A stretch of 5,141 bases of DNA from Burkholderiales bacterium (GTDB lineage Bacteria; Pseudomonadota; Gammaproteobacteria; Burkholderiales; Usitatibacteraceae). The notes beneath the pieces are model-generated. The model made no database searches, had not been told where the DNA came from, and was given only the letters and a program-made list of their open reading frames with translations. The stretch lies in the NCBI GenBank assembly GCA_017880705.1, contig JADGRS010000261.1:1-5141 (forward strand). Reading direction: 5' to 3'. Positions 3-5,141 of the stretch are shown piece after piece. The translations under genes were made by a program, and so were the position numbers. The stretch's first letter is position 1; each line of letters begins with the position of its first letter.

Positions 3-1157
3 GCCGGACTCTCGATGGAGATTCCGGAGCACAAAGCGATCCGCGGCGCGTTGAGCTATTTTTCCACAGACCTGCACGAGAGCATTCAGACTTCGTTGGA
101 CCGCTCCAGAAAGTACAAGAGGATGATCGACTCGGTTCTCGCGGAGTACAAGCTTCCAAAGGGCCTGGCCTACCTGCCGGTCATCGAAAGCGCCTACCTG
201 GAGACGCTGACCTCGCGCGCCGGTGCCCACGGCGTCTGGCAATTCATGCCCGATACCGCGCGGGAGTATGGCTTGCGGGTCGACTGGTGGGTCGATGAGC
301 GCGCCGACTTCGACAAAGCGACCCGGGCCGCCGCAGCCTACCTGCGCGATCTCTATGGACAATTCCACGACTGGCCTTTGACTCTGGCGGCCTACAACGC
401 CGGACCCGGCCGGATCCGCCGGGCCCTCGACGAGAACGGCGCGACGGATTTCTGGCAGTTGCTCGAGGCCGGTGCGATTCCCAAGGAAACCCGCGGCTAC
501 GTGCCGACCTTTTTTGCCACGCTCATGATCGCCAACGATCCGGCTGCCTACGGCTTCCAGCTCTCCGAGCCCGCGCATTCCGGCGAGGATGAACGCCGCG
601 TGGAGATCGAGGGCCCGGTCTCCCTTCGTTATGTCGCCGAAGCCGGCAACATCGACGAGACACTGCTGCGCCGGCTGAACCCATCCCTCAAGCGCGGCAT
701 GGTTCCACCAGGCCGTTGCGCGATCCGCGTACCGGCGCAGGCAGCATCGACCGTGGCGCAACGGGCCACCACCCTGCGCAGCGAAGACGCGCGAATCGCT
801 CTGACCGCCTTCACCGTCCGGCCGGGCGACAGCCTCGCGGACCTGGCCGACGCCATCGGAACATCGACCGAGGTGCTCTCGCAGATGAATTCGCTGCGGG
901 GTGGCGGCATTCACGAAGGCCAGACCATCTATCTTCCGGTGCGCGAACGAGAGCTCGCGTCGCTCCTCAATGACGAGGACGACGATTCGTACTACGCAGT
1001 GACGAAGGGCGACACAATCTATTCGATCGCCCGTAATCACGGCCTTTCGGTGGAAGAGCTTGTCGATCTGAACCAGCTCGATGCCGGACAGAAGCTCCGC
1101 ATCGGCCAGAAACTTCGCACCACGGCACGCATGCCTCTGGCCGCCGGCGGCATGTAA
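3..1157 (+). CDS. mltD: MltD-like membrane-bound lytic murein transglycosylase with two LysM domains, 5'-truncated
   Basis: Cleaves the glycan backbone of peptidoglycan to give 1,6-anhydromuramyl products in the periplasm. The reading frame is open to the left edge, and the codons before the first ATG (position 15) read A-G-L-S, matching the 'GLSMEIPE' region found inside MltD proteins. The true start, signal peptide and N-terminus are therefore outside the window. Numbering from that ATG, the SLT domain spans about 45-180, with putative catalytic Glu58 in PVIESAY, the GVWQFMPDTAREYGL motif at 73-87 and AYNAGPGR at 126-133. A linker domain with LRRLNPSLKRG lies at 195-240. LysM repeats, which bind N-acetylglucosamine chains, lie at about 264-309 and 327-369, separated by an acidic linker (EDDD). 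The C-terminus is complete (TAA). It converges on glcD with 5 bases between them. Family assignment is secure; the exact symbol is by architecture. Confidence 0.9.
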   Translation, partial: AGLSMEIPEHKAIRGALSYFSTDLHESIQTSLDRSRKYKRMIDSVLAEYKLPKGLAYLPVIESAYLETLTSRAGAHGVWQFMPDTAREYGLRVDWWVDERADFDKATRAAAAYLRDLYGQFHDWPLTLAAYNAGPGRIRRALDENGATDFWQLLEAGAIPKETRGYVPTFFATLMIANDPAAYGFQLSEPAHSGEDERRVEIEGPVSLRYVAEAGNIDETLLRRLNPSLKRGMVPPGRCAIRVPAQAASTVAQRATTLRSEDARIALTAFTVRPGDSLADLADAIGTSTEVLSQMNSLRGGGIHEGQTIYLPVRERELASLLNDEDDDSYYAVTKGDTIYSIARNHGLSVEELVDLNQLDAGQKLRIGQKLRTTARMPLAAGGM

Positions 1158-1162
1158 CGGAG

Positions 1163-2557
1163 TTACAGGAACATCTTCATCGGATTCAGGATCCCGGTCG
1201 GATCGAACTGCTCCTTGATCCGCTTCATCAAGCCGATCTCGACCGCTCCCTGCGTGATGGGGAGATACTCCTTCTGCACGTAGCCGATTCCGTGCTCGCC
1301 TGAAACCTGCCCGCCGAGCGAGGCCGTGTGCTGGAAGATCTCGGTGATTGCTTTCGGCAGCGCCACCCGCCAGGCCTCGTCATCGACGGTCTTGATGATG
1401 TTGCAGTGGATGTTGCCATCGCCGGCGTGGCCGTAACAGATGACCAGCAGACCGTAGCGCGCAGCGATCTCCTTGACGCCCCGGATCAGCTCCGGGATCC
1501 TGTCGCGAGGAACGACGGTGTCCTCCTCCTTGTAGATGTTGATGCTCTTGACGGCCTCTCCGATCGAGCGCCGCAGCGACCAGATCTCGCGCATCCTCGG
1601 CTCATCCTGGGCCAGAAACACATCGTCCGCGCCCGACTCCATGCAGGCTTCGGCCATCATCATCGCTTCGGCGTCGACGCGCTCTTCGGTGAACCCGTCG
1701 GCCTCCAGAAGAAGATGCGCCGCAGCATCGGGATGCGGCCACTCCTTACCCAGCTGCTTGATCGCGCACTGCGCCGCATCGCGCTCGATGAGCTCGCAGG
1801 CGCTCGGCTGTACGCCCTTCGAAAATGCGGCGGTCACTGCGATCGCCGCTTTGTCCAGGGAGTCGAACGGCGCCAGGAGAACCTTGCGGAACGGCGGCCA
1901 GGGAAGCAGCTTGAAGAAGATCTTCGTGGTGATGGCCAGCGTCCCCTCGGAGCCGACCAGAAGCTGTGTGAGGTTGTAGCCGCTGACATCCTTGTAGAGC
2001 TTGCCGCCCGTTTTGATCAGCGAGCCGTCCGCGAGGACGGCCTCCAGTCCCATCACGAAGTCCTTGGTCACGCCATATTTGACCGCGCGCGGTCCGCCGG
2101 CGTTCTCGGCCACGTTGCCGCCGAGGGTGCATGAGCCGCGCGAAGCCGGGTCAGGCGGGTAGTAGAGACCGACCTTCTCGACCTCCTCCTGAAAAACCTG
2201 CGTGATCACCCCCGGCTCGACGACTCCCATCAGATTGCTGCGATCGATCTCCACGATGGCATTCATCCGATGGCATGAGAGGAGGATGCCTCCCAGCACC
2301 GGAAGGGCGCCCCCCGAAAGGCCGGTGCCGCCGGCACGGGCAGTCACCGGGACGTGATGCTCGAAGGCGATGCGCATGATGGCCTGCACCTGCTCGGCCG
2401 TTCGCGGCAGCACCGCCACCTCGGGCATGAACACGAGATCCTCGGTGTAATCGGATGCGAACGGCGTCAGCGTCTCCTCGTCGGTCACCACGCCGTCCGG
2501 GCCGAGCACATCGGTCAACTTCTTCAAAACCCCATCTGTGACTCGGTTGAATTCCAT
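1163..2557 (-). CDS. glcD: GlcD-type FAD-linked oxidase (glycolate / D-2-hydroxyacid dehydrogenase family)
   Basis: A 464-residue flavoprotein, close to the usual GlcD length. The family oxidises glycolate, D-lactate or related D-2-hydroxyacids. A PCMH-type FAD-binding domain covers about 43-220, with PRTAEQV (51-57), AGGTGLSGGALP (75-86), VVEPGV (112-117), YPPDPASRGSCTLGGN (133-148) and VGSEGTLAITT (201-211). The FAD-oxidase C-terminal domain covers about 225-464, with GHAGDGNIH (376-384), SGEHGIG (419-425) and the terminal FDPTGILNPMK. Start: ATG at 2557 gives MEFNRVTDGVL, which resembles GlcD N-termini beginning M-x-F-N-x-V-T. No Shine-Dalgarno precedes it, because the sequence upstream is peptidase code. 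The native leader, and perhaps the native ATG, was lost at the join. No glcE, glcF or glcC partner is visible, so the substrate is undecided. Confidence 0.88.
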   Translation of the reverse strand: MEFNRVTDGVLKKLTDVLGPDGVVTDEETLTPFASDYTEDLVFMPEVAVLPRTAEQVQAIMRIAFEHHVPVTARAGGTGLSGGALPVLGGILLSCHRMNAIVEIDRSNLMGVVEPGVITQVFQEEVEKVGLYYPPDPASRGSCTLGGNVAENAGGPRAVKYGVTKDFVMGLEAVLADGSLIKTGGKLYKDVSGYNLTQLLVGSEGTLAITTKIFFKLLPWPPFRKVLLAPFDSLDKAAIAVTAAFSKGVQPSACELIERDAAQCAIKQLGKEWPHPDAAAHLLLEADGFTEERVDAEAMMMAEACMESGADDVFLAQDEPRMREIWSLRRSIGEAVKSINIYKEEDTVVPRDRIPELIRGVKEIAARYGLLVICYGHAGDGNIHCNIIKTVDDEAWRVALPKAITEIFQHTASLGGQVSGEHGIGYVQKEYLPITQGAVEIGLMKRIKEQFDPTGILNPMKMFL

Positions 2558-3565
2558 GCCCGGCATCATCGCCTTGAGGCGCGCGAAGACCTTCTCGAGG
2601 TACGGGTCGAAGAACTTGCGTTCGGTCTTGTCGCGAAGGTAGGTGACCATCGTGAGCTTCCTGCGCGCGCGCGACCAGTCGGCACCGCCCGCGTCGACCT
2701 CCGGATCCACGGACAGGACCTCCTCCGCGTCGGGCCGCGCCGGATCGACCAGCACGAGCGCTTTCTTGTCGCGCCCGCGATTGCTGATCATGTAGACCTT
2801 GCTGTCGTCGGCGTTGAAGAACGCGGGATCGACCTCGGTCCGGTAATCGGTGGTGATGATCGGCTTGAACTCGCTCTTCTCGTCGGCGCGGTAGAGCAGG
2901 ATCGAGTTCAGCCCCTGGGTGCGCGCGGCCATGCGCACGTGCCCCGCGTGGTCGGTCTGCCAGCCGATGATGTCGCCCGGGTTCTGCGCGACCAGCTCTT
3001 CCTTGCCGCTGCGCAGCTCGATGCGGTAGACGTCGAACACTTCCGGATTGCGCCGGTTGTGCGAGACGAGGATGTGGTCGGCGTCCTCGGGCAGGTCGTC
3101 CTGGATGCTCGCGCGCACCTTGTCGCCCGGCGTGAGGTCGGTGATGCGGCCGCTCTTCACGTCGACCGCCACCACGTGGAAATTCTCGTCGCCGCCGAAG
3201 TCCTTCTCGTAGAGGATGATGTCGCCGCCCTTCCAGTAATAGATGCTGATGTCGCGCGCGGTCTCGCCGGTGAGCTTGCGCGGCTCCCCCACGGGAAGGC
3301 TGCCCTCGAGCGGCTGCACGTATACATTCAGGCGCCGCTTCCCGCCCTCGACCGCGACCGGCTGCATGAAGCCGAGCGTCCTGCCGTCGTCGCTCAGGCG
3401 GAAGTACGCGCGCTCGGGACTGCTGAAGAAATCGTGCAACGGAAATTGCGGCGCCGGCGCGACGACTTCTTCGGCGATCGGCGGGTTGTTGGAGCAGGCG
3501 GCGGCAAGGGCCAGCGCCGACCCGCAGGCGACGAGACGCAAGCCAAGAAAAGAAATCGGCGGCAT
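1163..3565 (-). CDS. Nominal in-frame fusion ORF: S9 peptidase propeller lipoprotein joined to GlcD oxidase (probable chimera)
   Basis: An automatic caller would probably report this uninterrupted 800-codon frame as one gene. Residues 1-339 are the signal peptide and beta-propeller of a prolyl-oligopeptidase-family lipoprotein. Residues 337-800 are a full-length GlcD-type FAD oxidase. The two parts share only the codons M-E-F at the join, which contain GAATTC. The hydrolase domain that should follow the propeller is absent, and GlcD lacks any export signal of its own. GlcD-type enzymes are normally cytoplasmic or on the inner face of the membrane, whereas the N-terminal lipobox would send this product to the outer membrane. 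I know of no family with this architecture. The two halves are described separately below because I doubt the fusion exists as a functional protein. The reading frame itself is certain. Confidence 0.5.
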   Translation of the reverse strand: MPPISFLGLRLVACGSALALAAACSNNPPIAEEVVAPAPQFPLHDFFSSPERAYFRLSDDGRTLGFMQPVAVEGGKRRLNVYVQPLEGSLPVGEPRKLTGETARDISIYYWKGGDIILYEKDFGGDENFHVVAVDVKSGRITDLTPGDKVRASIQDDLPEDADHILVSHNRRNPEVFDVYRIELRSGKEELVAQNPGDIIGWQTDHAGHVRMAARTQGLNSILLYRADEKSEFKPIITTDYRTEVDPAFFNADDSKVYMISNRGRDKKALVLVDPARPDAEEVLSVDPEVDAGGADWSRARRKLTMVTYLRDKTERKFFDPYLEKVFARLKAMMPGMEFNRVTDGVLKKLTDVLGPDGVVTDEETLTPFASDYTEDLVFMPEVAVLPRTAEQVQAIMRIAFEHHVPVTARAGGTGLSGGALPVLGGILLSCHRMNAIVEIDRSNLMGVVEPGVITQVFQEEVEKVGLYYPPDPASRGSCTLGGNVAENAGGPRAVKYGVTKDFVMGLEAVLADGSLIKTGGKLYKDVSGYNLTQLLVGSEGTLAITTKIFFKLLPWPPFRKVLLAPFDSLDKAAIAVTAAFSKGVQPSACELIERDAAQCAIKQLGKEWPHPDAAAHLLLEADGFTEERVDAEAMMMAEACMESGADDVFLAQDEPRMREIWSLRRSIGEAVKSINIYKEEDTVVPRDRIPELIRGVKEIAARYGLLVICYGHAGDGNIHCNIIKTVDDEAWRVALPKAITEIFQHTASLGGQVSGEHGIGYVQKEYLPITQGAVEIGLMKRIKEQFDPTGILNPMKMFL
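2549..2554. other. GAATTC at the junction of the peptidase and glcD halves
   Basis: The perfect EcoRI hexamer GAATTC forms codons E-F immediately after the ATG at 2557-2555. To its right, on the coding strand's 5' side, every residue fits the S9 propeller through PGMEF. To its left every residue fits GlcD from (M)EFNRVT onward. The break in homology therefore coincides with this site to within a few bases. That is what ligation of two EcoRI fragments would give, or recombination at short microhomology. Confidence 0.6.
2549..3565 (-). pseudogene. S9 (prolyl oligopeptidase) family peptidase lipoprotein, N-terminal propeller only, 3' part missing
   Basis: Only the first ~339 residues of a protein whose family is usually about 650-700 residues. 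It starts at ATG 3565 with AGGA seven bases upstream. The signal peptide (residues 1-23) is hydrophobic and ends in a lipobox-like L-A-A-A-C at 20-24. Cys24 would be lipidated, and Ser at +2 fits outer-membrane sorting. Residues about 45-315 show the repeated beta-propeller pattern of COG1506-type peptidases: LSDDGRTLGFMQP, YYWKGGDIILYEKDFGGDENFHV (109-131), NPGDIIGWQTD, TDYRTEVDPAFF and SNRGRDKKALVLVD. DWSRARRKLTMVTYLRDK (296-313) and PGMEF (335-339) are typical of the last blade region. The alpha/beta-hydrolase domain with Ser-Asp-His is absent; GlcD code follows instead. As it stands it cannot be a peptidase. The intact gene probably cleaved peptides in the periplasm. Confidence 0.8.
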
Positions 3566-3646
3566 GGAGGAATCCTGTTGGGCTGAGGTCGAATGGTGGC
3601 ACATCCTGCCGCTTGGACGTGCCCACCCAGCCGATTGGATTCCTCC
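3566..3646 (-). promoter_or_regulatory. Long interrupted inverted repeat in the peptidase leader, masking its ribosome binding site
   Basis: A perfect 10-base inverted repeat, GGAGGAATCC at 3566-3575 and GGATTCCTCC at 3637-3646, encloses further helices. GGCTG (3581-3585) pairs with CAGCC (3628-3632). GGCACATCC (3598-3606) pairs with GGACGTGCC (3615-3623), with one pair that becomes U-G in the minus-strand RNA. GGT (3595-3597) pairs with ACC (3625-3627) across a one-base bulge. The loop is 8 bases (3607-3614). In mRNA the structure ends one base before the AUG at 3565 and contains the AGGA ribosome binding site. This suggests translational control of the peptidase. There is no U-tract, so it is not a standard terminator. 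The pairing is seen in the sequence; its function is inferred. Confidence 0.5.
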
Positions 3647-3664
3647 CGCCGCGCAGTGGCGGCG
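3647..3664 (-). terminator. Small GC hairpin after the TonB-C-like gene (weak terminator candidate)
   Basis: CGCCGC (3647-3652) and GCGGCG (3659-3664) form a 6-bp stem with a 6-base loop, five bases past the TGA stop at 3670-3672. No U-run follows. The hairpin directly abuts the outer arm of the larger inverted repeat in the peptidase leader. It could slow polymerase or protect the 3' end, but it is weak as an intrinsic terminator. Confidence 0.25.
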
Positions 3665-3669
3665 CGGGG

Positions 3670-4236
3670 TCAGTAGTGAACGCCGTTCGGCGAAGGCGTC
3701 CACATGGCCGGATTCCAGTACGTGCGCGCGGTGTGGTGGCGCTCGAGCTCGAAGCGGTACTTGAACGAGAAATCGCCCTCGCAAGGCTTGCCGTCGCACT
3801 TGGCCGGCTTGTACGTGGCATCCAGCAACGCGAGCCCCATCGCCTGCTCCATGTTGCGGTTCGGGCTCGCGAGGACCGCGACGCCGAGGGGATGCCCGTT
3901 CGCGTCGACCCGGACCGCGAGATGCAGCAGCCCCGAATCGAAGTCCTGCGCCGAGACTTTCGCCAGGTCGCGCAGGATCGGGGTCATTCCCTCCAGCGGA
4001 TAGGGCGGCTCGTCTCGCGCTCCAAGCTGCACGTAGTCGTCGCGCACGAGACTCTTCTGCTCGCTCGTGAGCTCTTCGTAGCGCAGGTTGATGGGGACGG
4101 GCCAGACGACCGCGGCCCTGACGATATTGGTTCCGGTTGGTGCCACGTCTTCGCGCAGCGCGTACCGGTCCGCCGCCACGGCCGCCCCGGCCAAGGCTAG
4201 TGAAAGTGCCGCACCCACTCTTGCCATCGTGCGCAT
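3670..4236 (-). CDS. Secreted TonB C-terminal-like (energy transducer superfamily) protein, no membrane anchor
   Basis: A 188-residue protein starting at ATG 4236, chosen because GGAGG lies four bases upstream and the next ATG (4227) would be too far from it. Residues 1-22 form a cleavable signal peptide (M-R-T-M-A-R, hydrophobic core, A-V-A-A cut), so the mature protein is probably periplasmic. Residues about 78-165 resemble the TonB C-terminal fold: PPYPLEGM, then LLHLAVRVDANGHPLGVAVLASPN, then a helix (MEQAMGLALLDATYKPA), then GDFSFKYRFEL. A true TonB would have an N-terminal anchor and a proline-rich linker, and both are missing. Cys147 and Cys152 lie in the loop KCDGKPCEG and could form a disulphide. 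Function unknown. It lies 112 bases downstream of gst and 104 bases upstream of the peptidase start, all on the same strand, so co-transcription is possible. Confidence 0.7.
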   Translation of the reverse strand: MRTMARVGAALSLALAGAAVAADRYALREDVAPTGTNIVRAAVVWPVPINLRYEELTSEQKSLVRDDYVQLGARDEPPYPLEGMTPILRDLAKVSAQDFDSGLLHLAVRVDANGHPLGVAVLASPNRNMEQAMGLALLDATYKPAKCDGKPCEGDFSFKYRFELERHHTARTYWNPAMWTPSPNGVHY

Positions 4237-4240
4237 ATCG

Positions 4241-4245
4241 CCTCC
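4241..4245 (-). promoter_or_regulatory. Ribosome binding site of the TonB-C-like gene
   Basis: GGAGG on the minus strand (CCTCC at 4241-4245), four bases before ATG 4236. It decides in favour of this ATG over the in-frame ATG nine bases further in. A TATCAT (minus strand, 4265-4270) just upstream could be a -10 box, but no matching -35 is visible. Confidence 0.6.
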
Positions 4246-4284
4246 GAAGATGAGTCGAAGCCCGATGATAGGCGAGCGCAAGAG

Positions 4285-4322
4285 GGGCCCCGCCCGCGGT
4301 AACAAAACGTAAGACGGGGCCC
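4285..4322 (-). terminator. GC-rich hairpin between gst and the TonB-C-like gene (possible terminator)
   Basis: GGGCCCCG (4285-4292) and CGGGGCCC (4315-4322) form a perfect 8-bp stem around a 22-base loop. The stem begins 27 bases past the gst stop codon. No U-tract follows in the minus-strand transcript, so it may be a weak or Rho-assisted terminator, or simply a 3'-end stabilising stem. The loop contains the most AT-rich bases of this spacer (GGTAACAAAACGTAA). Confidence 0.3.
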
Positions 4323-4349
4323 GCGGCGAGCCCCCCCTGCACCCTTGCC

Positions 4350-4958
4350 CTACTTGATGAGCCCCTCGGCCCTCATCGCCGCCTGCACCGCGGGGCGCGC
4401 GGCGACGCGCTTCTGGAAAGCGGCGACGTTGGGAAAGGGCGAAAGATCGAACTTCACGTTGTGCGCCCAGTTGGTGACGGTGAAGAGGTACGCGTCGGCG
4501 ACGCTGAAGCGATTGCCGAAGAGATAGTCGTGGCCCGCGAGCTGCTTCTCCATCACGGCGTAGCGCTTGCCGAGGTACGCCAGCCTGTCCGCGCGCACTT
4601 CGGGAGGCGTCTTGTCGTTGAAGAGCGGCGAGTACGTCTTGTGGATCTCGGAATTGATGAAGCCCAGCGTCTCCTGCAGGCGATAGCGCTCCGTCGTGCC
4701 GTTGGCGGGTGCGAGGCCCGCCTCGGGCTTGCGGTCGGCGAGGTATTGCACGATCGCGGGGCCTTCGGTGAGGAGCTCGCCGTTTTCCATCTGCAGCGCG
4801 GGCACGTAGCCCTTGGGATTGATCGCGTAATAGTCCGCGCCGTCCGCCGCGACGTGCTTCCCGAGGTCGACCTTCTCGAGCTGCACGTCGAGGCCCAGCT
4901 CGGAAGCGACGATGTGGGGCGAGAGCGAGCACGCGCCCGGTGCGTAGTAGAGCTTCAT
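4350..4958 (-). CDS. gstA: Beta-class glutathione S-transferase (GstA type)
   Basis: A 202-residue cytosolic enzyme, the standard length for bacterial beta-class GST, which conjugates or reduces electrophiles using glutathione. The thioredoxin-like N-terminal domain (1-78) begins MKLYYAPGACSLSPHIV, with the class-defining Cys10-Ser11. It contains NPKGYVPAL with cis-Pro53 and EGPAIVQYLAD (65-75), the glutathione gamma-glutamyl contact. The helical C-terminal domain (about 88-202) has His106 in INSEIHK, where beta-class enzymes have a conserved His, and the N-capping motif FSVADAYLF (151-159, Asp155). The ATG at 4958 fits family N-termini and has GGAGA eight bases upstream; an in-frame TTG at 4973 overlaps that site and is rejected. 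A probable HxlR-type regulator is divergent across a 146-base spacer, suggesting induction by electrophiles or oxidants. Confidence 0.95.
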   Translation of the reverse strand: MKLYYAPGACSLSPHIVASELGLDVQLEKVDLGKHVAADGADYYAINPKGYVPALQMENGELLTEGPAIVQYLADRKPEAGLAPANGTTERYRLQETLGFINSEIHKTYSPLFNDKTPPEVRADRLAYLGKRYAVMEKQLAGHDYLFGNRFSVADAYLFTVTNWAHNVKFDLSPFPNVAAFQKRVAARPAVQAAMRAEGLIK

Positions 4959-4966
4959 GGATGTCG

Positions 4967-4971
4967 TCTCC
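4967..4971 (-). promoter_or_regulatory. Ribosome binding site of gst
   Basis: GGAGA on the minus strand (TCTCC at 4967-4971), eight bases before ATG 4958. It overlaps the alternative TTG start at 4973-4971, which supports choosing the ATG. Confidence 0.6.
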
Positions 4972-5025
4972 AATGGGGGTTGGGATGCGGGTGGGGTGAA
5001 TTCAGCGGCGAGAATAACCCTTGCA

Positions 5026-5048
5026 GTTACCTTTGTATAGCTGGTAAC
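5026..5048. promoter_or_regulatory. Operator-like inverted repeat GTTACC-N11-GGTAAC
   Basis: GTTACC (5026-5031) and GGTAAC (5043-5048) are perfect inverted half-sites with centres 17 bases apart. They flank the putative gst -10 box. Their position between gst and a probable HxlR-family regulator suggests the binding site of that regulator, a dimeric winged-helix protein. The repeat is seen; the binding is inferred. Confidence 0.5.
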
Positions 5049-5061
5049 CTTCAGATATCTG
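5033..5061 (+). promoter_or_regulatory. Weak candidate promoter of the divergent regulator
   Basis: TTGTAT (5033-5038) and TATCTG (5056-5061), 17 bases apart, are imperfect -35/-10 matches facing the right-edge gene. If real, this promoter is superimposed on the gst promoter and on the GGTAACC repeat, so one bound protein could control both directions. Confidence 0.22.
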
Positions 5062-5064
5062 CAA
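5035..5064 (-). promoter_or_regulatory. Candidate sigma70-type promoter of gst
   Basis: On the minus strand, TTGCAG (5064-5059) could be a -35 box and CTATAC (5040-5035) a -10 box, with an 18-base spacer. This is the only AT-rich stretch in the divergent spacer. The spacer between the boxes contains a GGTAAC repeat, so a bound regulator would block it. This is a motif match by eye only. Confidence 0.4.
5052..5061. repeat. Perfect 10-base palindrome CAGATATCTG
   Basis: CAGATATCTG is self-complementary with no gap and sits between the two GGTAACC copies. It overlaps the candidate -35 of gst and the candidate -10 of the divergent gene. It may be an extra protein site or a coincidence in an AT-rich stretch. 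Confidence 0.3.
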
Positions 5065-5071
5065 ATTCCGC

Positions 5072-5085
5072 TTACCTCGCGGTAA
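5072..5085. promoter_or_regulatory. Second operator-like repeat TTACC-N4-GGTAA
   Basis: TTACC (5072-5076) and GGTAA (5081-5085) form an inverted repeat with a 4-base gap. Its right half lies in GGTAACC (5081-5087), a direct copy of GGTAACC at 5043-5049, 38 bases away. This points to two related sites for the same protein, this one nearer the regulator gene and well placed for autoregulation. Confidence 0.4.
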
Positions 5086-5092
5086 CCGGTCC

Positions 5093-5098
5093 GAGGGG
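5093..5098 (+). promoter_or_regulatory. Ribosome binding site of the right-edge regulator
   Basis: GAGGGG at 5093-5098 lies six bases before ATG 5105. It supports a real translation start there although only 12 codons are visible. Confidence 0.5.
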
Positions 5099-5104
5099 AA
5101 TTCC

Positions 5105-5141
5105 ATGGCGTTGAAGATGCGCAAGAGCCGGGCCCCGCCGC
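5105..5141 (+). CDS. Probable HxlR-family winged-helix regulator, N-terminal fragment cut by the right edge
   Basis: Only 12 complete codons are present: M-A-L-K-M-R-K-S-R-A-P-P. From memory of the family, many proteobacterial HxlR regulators begin M-(A/P)-L-K-x-R-K-x-R-x-P-x-P-P, just before the Cys-containing start of the winged helix. The match, a good ribosome binding site, the divergent placement next to gst and GGTAACC repeats in the shared spacer all agree. HxlR regulators often sense electrophiles or oxidants through a conserved Cys, which would lie beyond the window. Twelve residues cannot prove the family. Confidence 0.5.
   Translation, partial: MALKMRKSRAPP

Follow-up and report, generated by a model that had tools for sequence, protein, structure and literature searches.

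The open reading frame of 800 aa at positions 1163-3565 (minus strand) of the DNA analyzed here raises the question of whether an exported protein that begins as a propeller and ends as a flavin oxidase exists in a bacterium, or whether the genes of two organisms have been brought together in one contig. The window, by which we mean the whole stretch of 5141 nucleotides, is all of contig C377 (1-5141) of the MAG G000, whose 509 contigs total 3.28 Mb, with 87.24% completeness and 0.95% contamination. The frame begins with an ATG at 3565, its stop ends at 1163, and there is no internal stop between them; upstream of 3565, the frame stays open to a GTG at 4342. The features of the window are given below, where L065 is a Thermoanaerobaculia contig and G003 a genome of the window's own genus, both of which are described in the following paragraphs.

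1-2545: probable foreign block of Thermoanaerobaculia-like source, holding the 3' part of an MltD-like gene and a GlcD-like gene, which are convergent (L065 match and k-mer score)
3-1157, plus strand: MltD-like lytic transglycosylase with LysM repeats, truncated by the left contig end (Pfam SLT and LysM, scan from 15)
1163-2566, minus strand: complete GlcD-like FAD-linked oxidase of 467 aa, first ATG at 2566 (PF01565 and PF02913; L065 and P0001)
2546-2566, minus strand: word probably common to both genes at the join, ATGCCGGGCATGGAATTCAAC (18 bases firmer, 21 with the Asn codon)
2549-2554: GAATTC, inside the shared word and native in the L065 oxidase gene
2549-3565, minus strand: S9 peptidase lipoprotein gene, 5' part only (residues 1-339), with signal, lipobox and propeller and without the catalytic part (G003:C256 and P0002)
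3670-4236, minus strand: small protein, weakly TonB-like, which goes with the right-hand part (NF038079; G003 DNA match)
4350-4958, minus strand: glutathione transferase GstA-like gene (NF007831; G003 DNA match)

Residues 1-25 of the frame form a lipoprotein-type signal with a C-S lipobox (ALAAAC-S, read by eye). Over residues 1-339, the frame is 94.7% identical at the amino acid level to P0002, a 649-aa S9 peptidase, and over residues 334-800 it is 98.7% identical to P0001, a 467-aa FAD-linked oxidase, which bears out the sequence-only reading of this DNA in its claim that an unbroken frame leads from a lipoprotein signal and propeller into an oxidase. The Pfam scan of the 800-aa frame returned only FAD_binding_4 (PF01565, 130.5 bits) and FAD-oxidase_C (PF02913, 213.3 bits), both above the gathering score and starting from residue 381. 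There was no Pfam match in this frame to the S9 catalytic domain, PF00326, which lies at residues 437-647 of P0002 and at about the same place (437-648) in the 650-aa S9 gene of G003. In comparison with the S9 prolyl-oligopeptidase family lipoproteins P0002 and G003:C256, the frame thus has their signal, lipobox and propeller part, but the catalytic domain is missing, as had been claimed.

The other half had been called a complete GlcD oxidase. It is indeed a complete FAD-linked oxidase of 467 aa; however, the GlcD NCBIfam equivalog TIGR00387 gives 415.8 bits over positions 2-413 of the 413 in the profile, and the cut-off of 567.9 is not reached. The oxidase half is, therefore, a GlcD-like FAD-linked oxidase, and not a certified GlcD. 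We note that another contig of the same MAG, C250, carries two GlcD-like FAD-oxidase genes in tandem (4067-6903), with similar neighboring pairs in several relatives.

When the oxidase half was searched against GTDB genome contigs, 47 loci were obtained, the best of which was L065, a 38,176-base contig of the MAG Thermoanaerobaculia bacterium isolate Chersky.13_21 (phylum Acidobacteriota; genome G061), which in this contig search encodes the oxidase half at 100% amino acid identity over 463 residues. Nearly all other loci (45 of 46) lie at 35-58% identity, and the remaining one is a short match of ~200 residues with a best segment of 74%. In BLASTN, positions 1-2566 of the window align to positions 7554-4989 of L065 with 99.53% identity, 12 mismatches and 0 gaps, a match that takes in the MltD-like gene and extends as far as the left end of the window's contig. 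Five of the 12 mismatches fall inside the oxidase gene, where all are silent, and the encoded protein is identical to that of the L065 gene at 467 of 467 residues. For the MltD-like protein, the part in the window differs from L065 at 3 of 385 positions (the L065 open reading frame, 6398-7816, encodes 472 aa), and the two genes stand in the same order in L065 as in the window.

On this side, the last base of the identity is the A in the first ATG of the oxidase frame of L065 (window position 2566), and before this ATG the window and L065 are unrelated, with identity at background level. Both the L065 oxidase and P0001 (467 aa, listed from a 5,690-base contig) start at MPGMEFN. The Thermoanaerobaculia oxidase (L065, P0001), like that in the window, is a complete gene for 467 aa; L065 has it as a gene apart, preceded by an upstream region of its own, whereas in the window it is fused. 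Within the order and family of the window itself, relatives of the oxidase half are distant: the matches listed outside the window reach at most 41% identity, except for one 142-residue fragment at 43%. On the strength of these alignments, bases 1-2566 probably come from a Thermoanaerobaculia-like bacterium.

To the right of the join, the nearest genome relative among the genomes searched is of the window's own genus. This congener, G003, has on its contig C256 a complete 650-aa S9 frame with PF00326, and the window from 3520 to 2546 matches this gene with 80% DNA identity. G003 also has matches to the two genes further to the right, with 68% DNA identity over 325 bases for the TonB-like gene and 71% for the GstA-like gene; the three genes of the right part match different G003 contigs, and the gene order of the window is not seen in that genome. 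The GstA assignment (NF007831) is above its cut-off, with 244 bits against 198, whereas the TonB-like name for 3670-4236 comes from a score of 20.2 bits against a cut-off of 925 (NF038079), and this gene has no Pfam match. The source names of related S9 proteins include Usitatibacter (P0023 and P0081), a betaproteobacterium, from which the MAG is probably Usitatibacter-like. Bases ~2546-5141 would, on this evidence, probably belong to the window's own MAG species. As is expected of an assembly chimera, the two sides find their matches in different genomes, and the genes continue normally there, in L065 on the left and in the S9 gene of G003 on the right.

The composition of the two parts was compared using an order-4 Markov k-mer log-ratio, trained on eight stretches of G000, which were regions matched in earlier searches and not a random sample, and on three stretches of G061, two of which were from L065's own contig outside the matched interval. 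This score classified all 82 test pieces of 1000 bases correctly (54/54 from the MAG itself and 28/28 from the other genome). It is -0.030 for positions 1-2545, on the side of the other organism, and +0.021 for positions 2567-5141, with the change of sign in windows centered near 2500-2700 and only positive values in windows with a start position of at least 2201. At +0.021, the right part falls short of the average for test pieces from the MAG itself (0.037, sd 0.013), which speaks mildly against a perfectly typical contig of this MAG.

The homology on the left ends at 2566 and that on the right at 2546, and the two therefore overlap by 18-21 bases, ATGCCGGGCATGGAATTC(AAC). The count of 18, through GAATTC, is the firmer one, as 21 requires the Asn codon to be native to the S9 gene; the Asn is seen in P0003, P0005 and G003, where the S9 motif reads LPGMEFN, while P0004 has LPGMEFV and the nearest S9 relative, P0002, has MPDMEFI rather than MPGMEFN. 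From the presence of PGMEF in P0003, P0004, P0005 and G003, it is likely that the S9 gene of this species itself carried the shared word. In L065, the GlcD-like gene begins with this word, and GAATTC is part of the native start region of the oxidase. The 18-base word occurs once in G000, at the join, and once in G061, and is absent from G001 and G003. The fused frame stays open because both genes read the shared word in the same frame. The codons M-E-F, noted earlier as fitting both families, lie in MPGMEFN of the oxidases and in PGMEF of the four S9 sequences above. The placement of the switch at GAATTC (2549-2554) was too narrow: the hexamer does lie within the shared stretch, but from the two alignments the exact switch point is to be sought somewhere within 2546-2566, and is not placeable at GAATTC itself.

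The presence of GAATTC at the join had also been taken as a clue to EcoRI, and this is what argues for a chimeric molecule made in the laboratory (by whole-genome amplification, PCR or ligation, including EcoRI cloning) and then sequenced faithfully. Molecules of this kind, too, are formed between unrelated genomes at short identities. However, GAATTC is native to the oxidase gene in the Thermoanaerobaculia contig, and the GAATTC at 887 shows no join but lies inside a block that is continuous in L065, such that an EcoRI cloning scar was rejected and the clue appears to be a coincidence. Furthermore, the two homologies overlap by more than six bases, and, as one of the 509 contigs of its genome, the window is more likely to stem from shotgun assembly than from EcoRI cloning. 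Taking these points into account, we regard a laboratory origin of the join as very unlikely. As a separate observation, GAATTC occurs in the window at 887, 2549, 4998 and 5098, that is, four sites compared to ~1.3 expected, and 6 of 200 shuffles reach four.

If the frame were instead a genuine two-domain exported propeller-oxidase with a function of its own, as its unbroken reading and lipoprotein signal would allow, the same architecture might be sought in other proteins and genomes. A database search with residues 240-440, in which candidates of up to 1.75 times the query length were allowed, gave 1353 proteins, of which the best 120, with lengths of 441-671 aa, each cover 44-58% of the query, and none of these spans the join. 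With residues 300-380, all 19 of the 19 matches cover 49-59%, and again none spans the join; four of these contain S9 domains and 15 contain FAD-oxidase domains. Independent proteins across the join, which the sequence-only reading had singled out as informative, are thus not found among the matches listed for either segment.

We also searched the whole 800-aa frame against 61 genomes (the MAG's own and 60 relatives) at E ≤ 1e-50. A continuation from S9 into oxidase occurs in 0 of the 60 relatives at this threshold, the window being the one sequence that spans the join. In the relatives, the 13 S9 matches stop at residues 339-343, and none of the oxidase matches starts before residue 281; some of the latter start at residues 281-335 with 29-37% identity, four of them containing an internal stop, and we read these as upstream sequence. 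Among the matches listed for 40 genomes of G061's class, 39 of which have a match, there is likewise no span across the join. As, in addition, the other organism has the oxidase as a gene on its own, with all 467 residues the same, a functional two-domain protein is so improbable as to be negligible.

A further possibility is that of real transfer, in which a Thermoanaerobaculia block would have recombined into the S9 gene of the MAG species at the 18-21 shared bases, destroying the peptidase and making the fusion. The open frame with its export signal is compatible with such an event, for which the shared word could act as microhomology, but the foreign block is 99.53% identical to the contig of another organism and reaches the contig end without a second boundary, its composition is unadapted, 0 of the 60 relatives carry the fusion at E ≤ 1e-50, and the MAG still retains, on contig C157, the C-terminal piece of an S9 gene of this lineage. 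We therefore consider real transfer to be extremely unlikely, and it is just as hard to credit that capture of the block at a 21-base microhomology made an exported propeller-flavoprotein out of an outer-membrane peptidase.

The piece on C157 (positions 9-1115, locus L113) aligns to residues 283-649 of P0002 and carries PF00326, but it is not uniform along its length. Up to about residue 183, its frame is 15-70% identical to P0004 per 20-residue block, whereas the blocks from about residue 184-192 onward match P0002 and P0004 at 80-100% identity. The first 440 bases have 56% GC compared to 65% after, with a strongly foreign k-mer score of -0.076, and the change point lies near the conserved RGSTGYG motif, at about base 540. 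In a comparison of the first 600 bases with G061, there was no match beyond 83 bases at 73%, and G061 is for this reason not the source of the early part. C157 thus looks like a second chimeric contig in the same MAG, and only its later part looks similar to the S9 lineage of the window. As a direct continuation of the window's S9 gene, C157 was rejected, given the divergence of its early part from P0004 and the foreign k-mer score. On the G000 contigs, no native continuation of this particular S9 gene beyond residue 340 was found, with C157 providing a C-terminal part only. These S9 remnants appear to agree better with a gene split at conserved words during assembly than with one that has lost its peptidase domain.

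Returning to the question posed at the outset, the 800-aa fused frame is, judging from the sequence comparisons, very likely an assembly chimera of DNA from two bacteria, which seem to be of different phyla. The sequence-only reading had placed a cloning or assembly chimera first among its explanations, and the match of the two sides to different organisms supports this, most likely in the assembly form. Thermoanaerobaculia-like DNA (1-2566) would have been joined to DNA of the MAG species (~2546-5141) at the 18-21-base word, which in the S9 gene would encode the (M/L)PGMEF motif between the propeller and the catalytic domain, the bases of this species' own gene being deduced from its relatives. 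An assembler of the de Bruijn type working on short reads could have entered the word on the S9 side and exited on the oxidase side. The contig name of L065, "contig-100_73", resembles IDBA-type naming.

That shared k-mers in metagenome graphs give rise to chimeric contigs is described in passages of PMC7299287. The window is like those cases in that two genomes are found in one contig, with the switch at a short word; it differs in that the passages in question are mainly on related species, whereas the sources here are seemingly of different phyla and the switch is in frame.

Most likely, then, no genome really has this fusion, and the fused protein is not expected in any cell. The window illustrates cleanly how an in-frame chimera would come to be annotated as a novel domain fusion, in a genome listed at 0.95% contamination, and serves as a warning that, before fusions are named in fragmented MAGs, the join should be checked for a short word common to two stand-alone genes.
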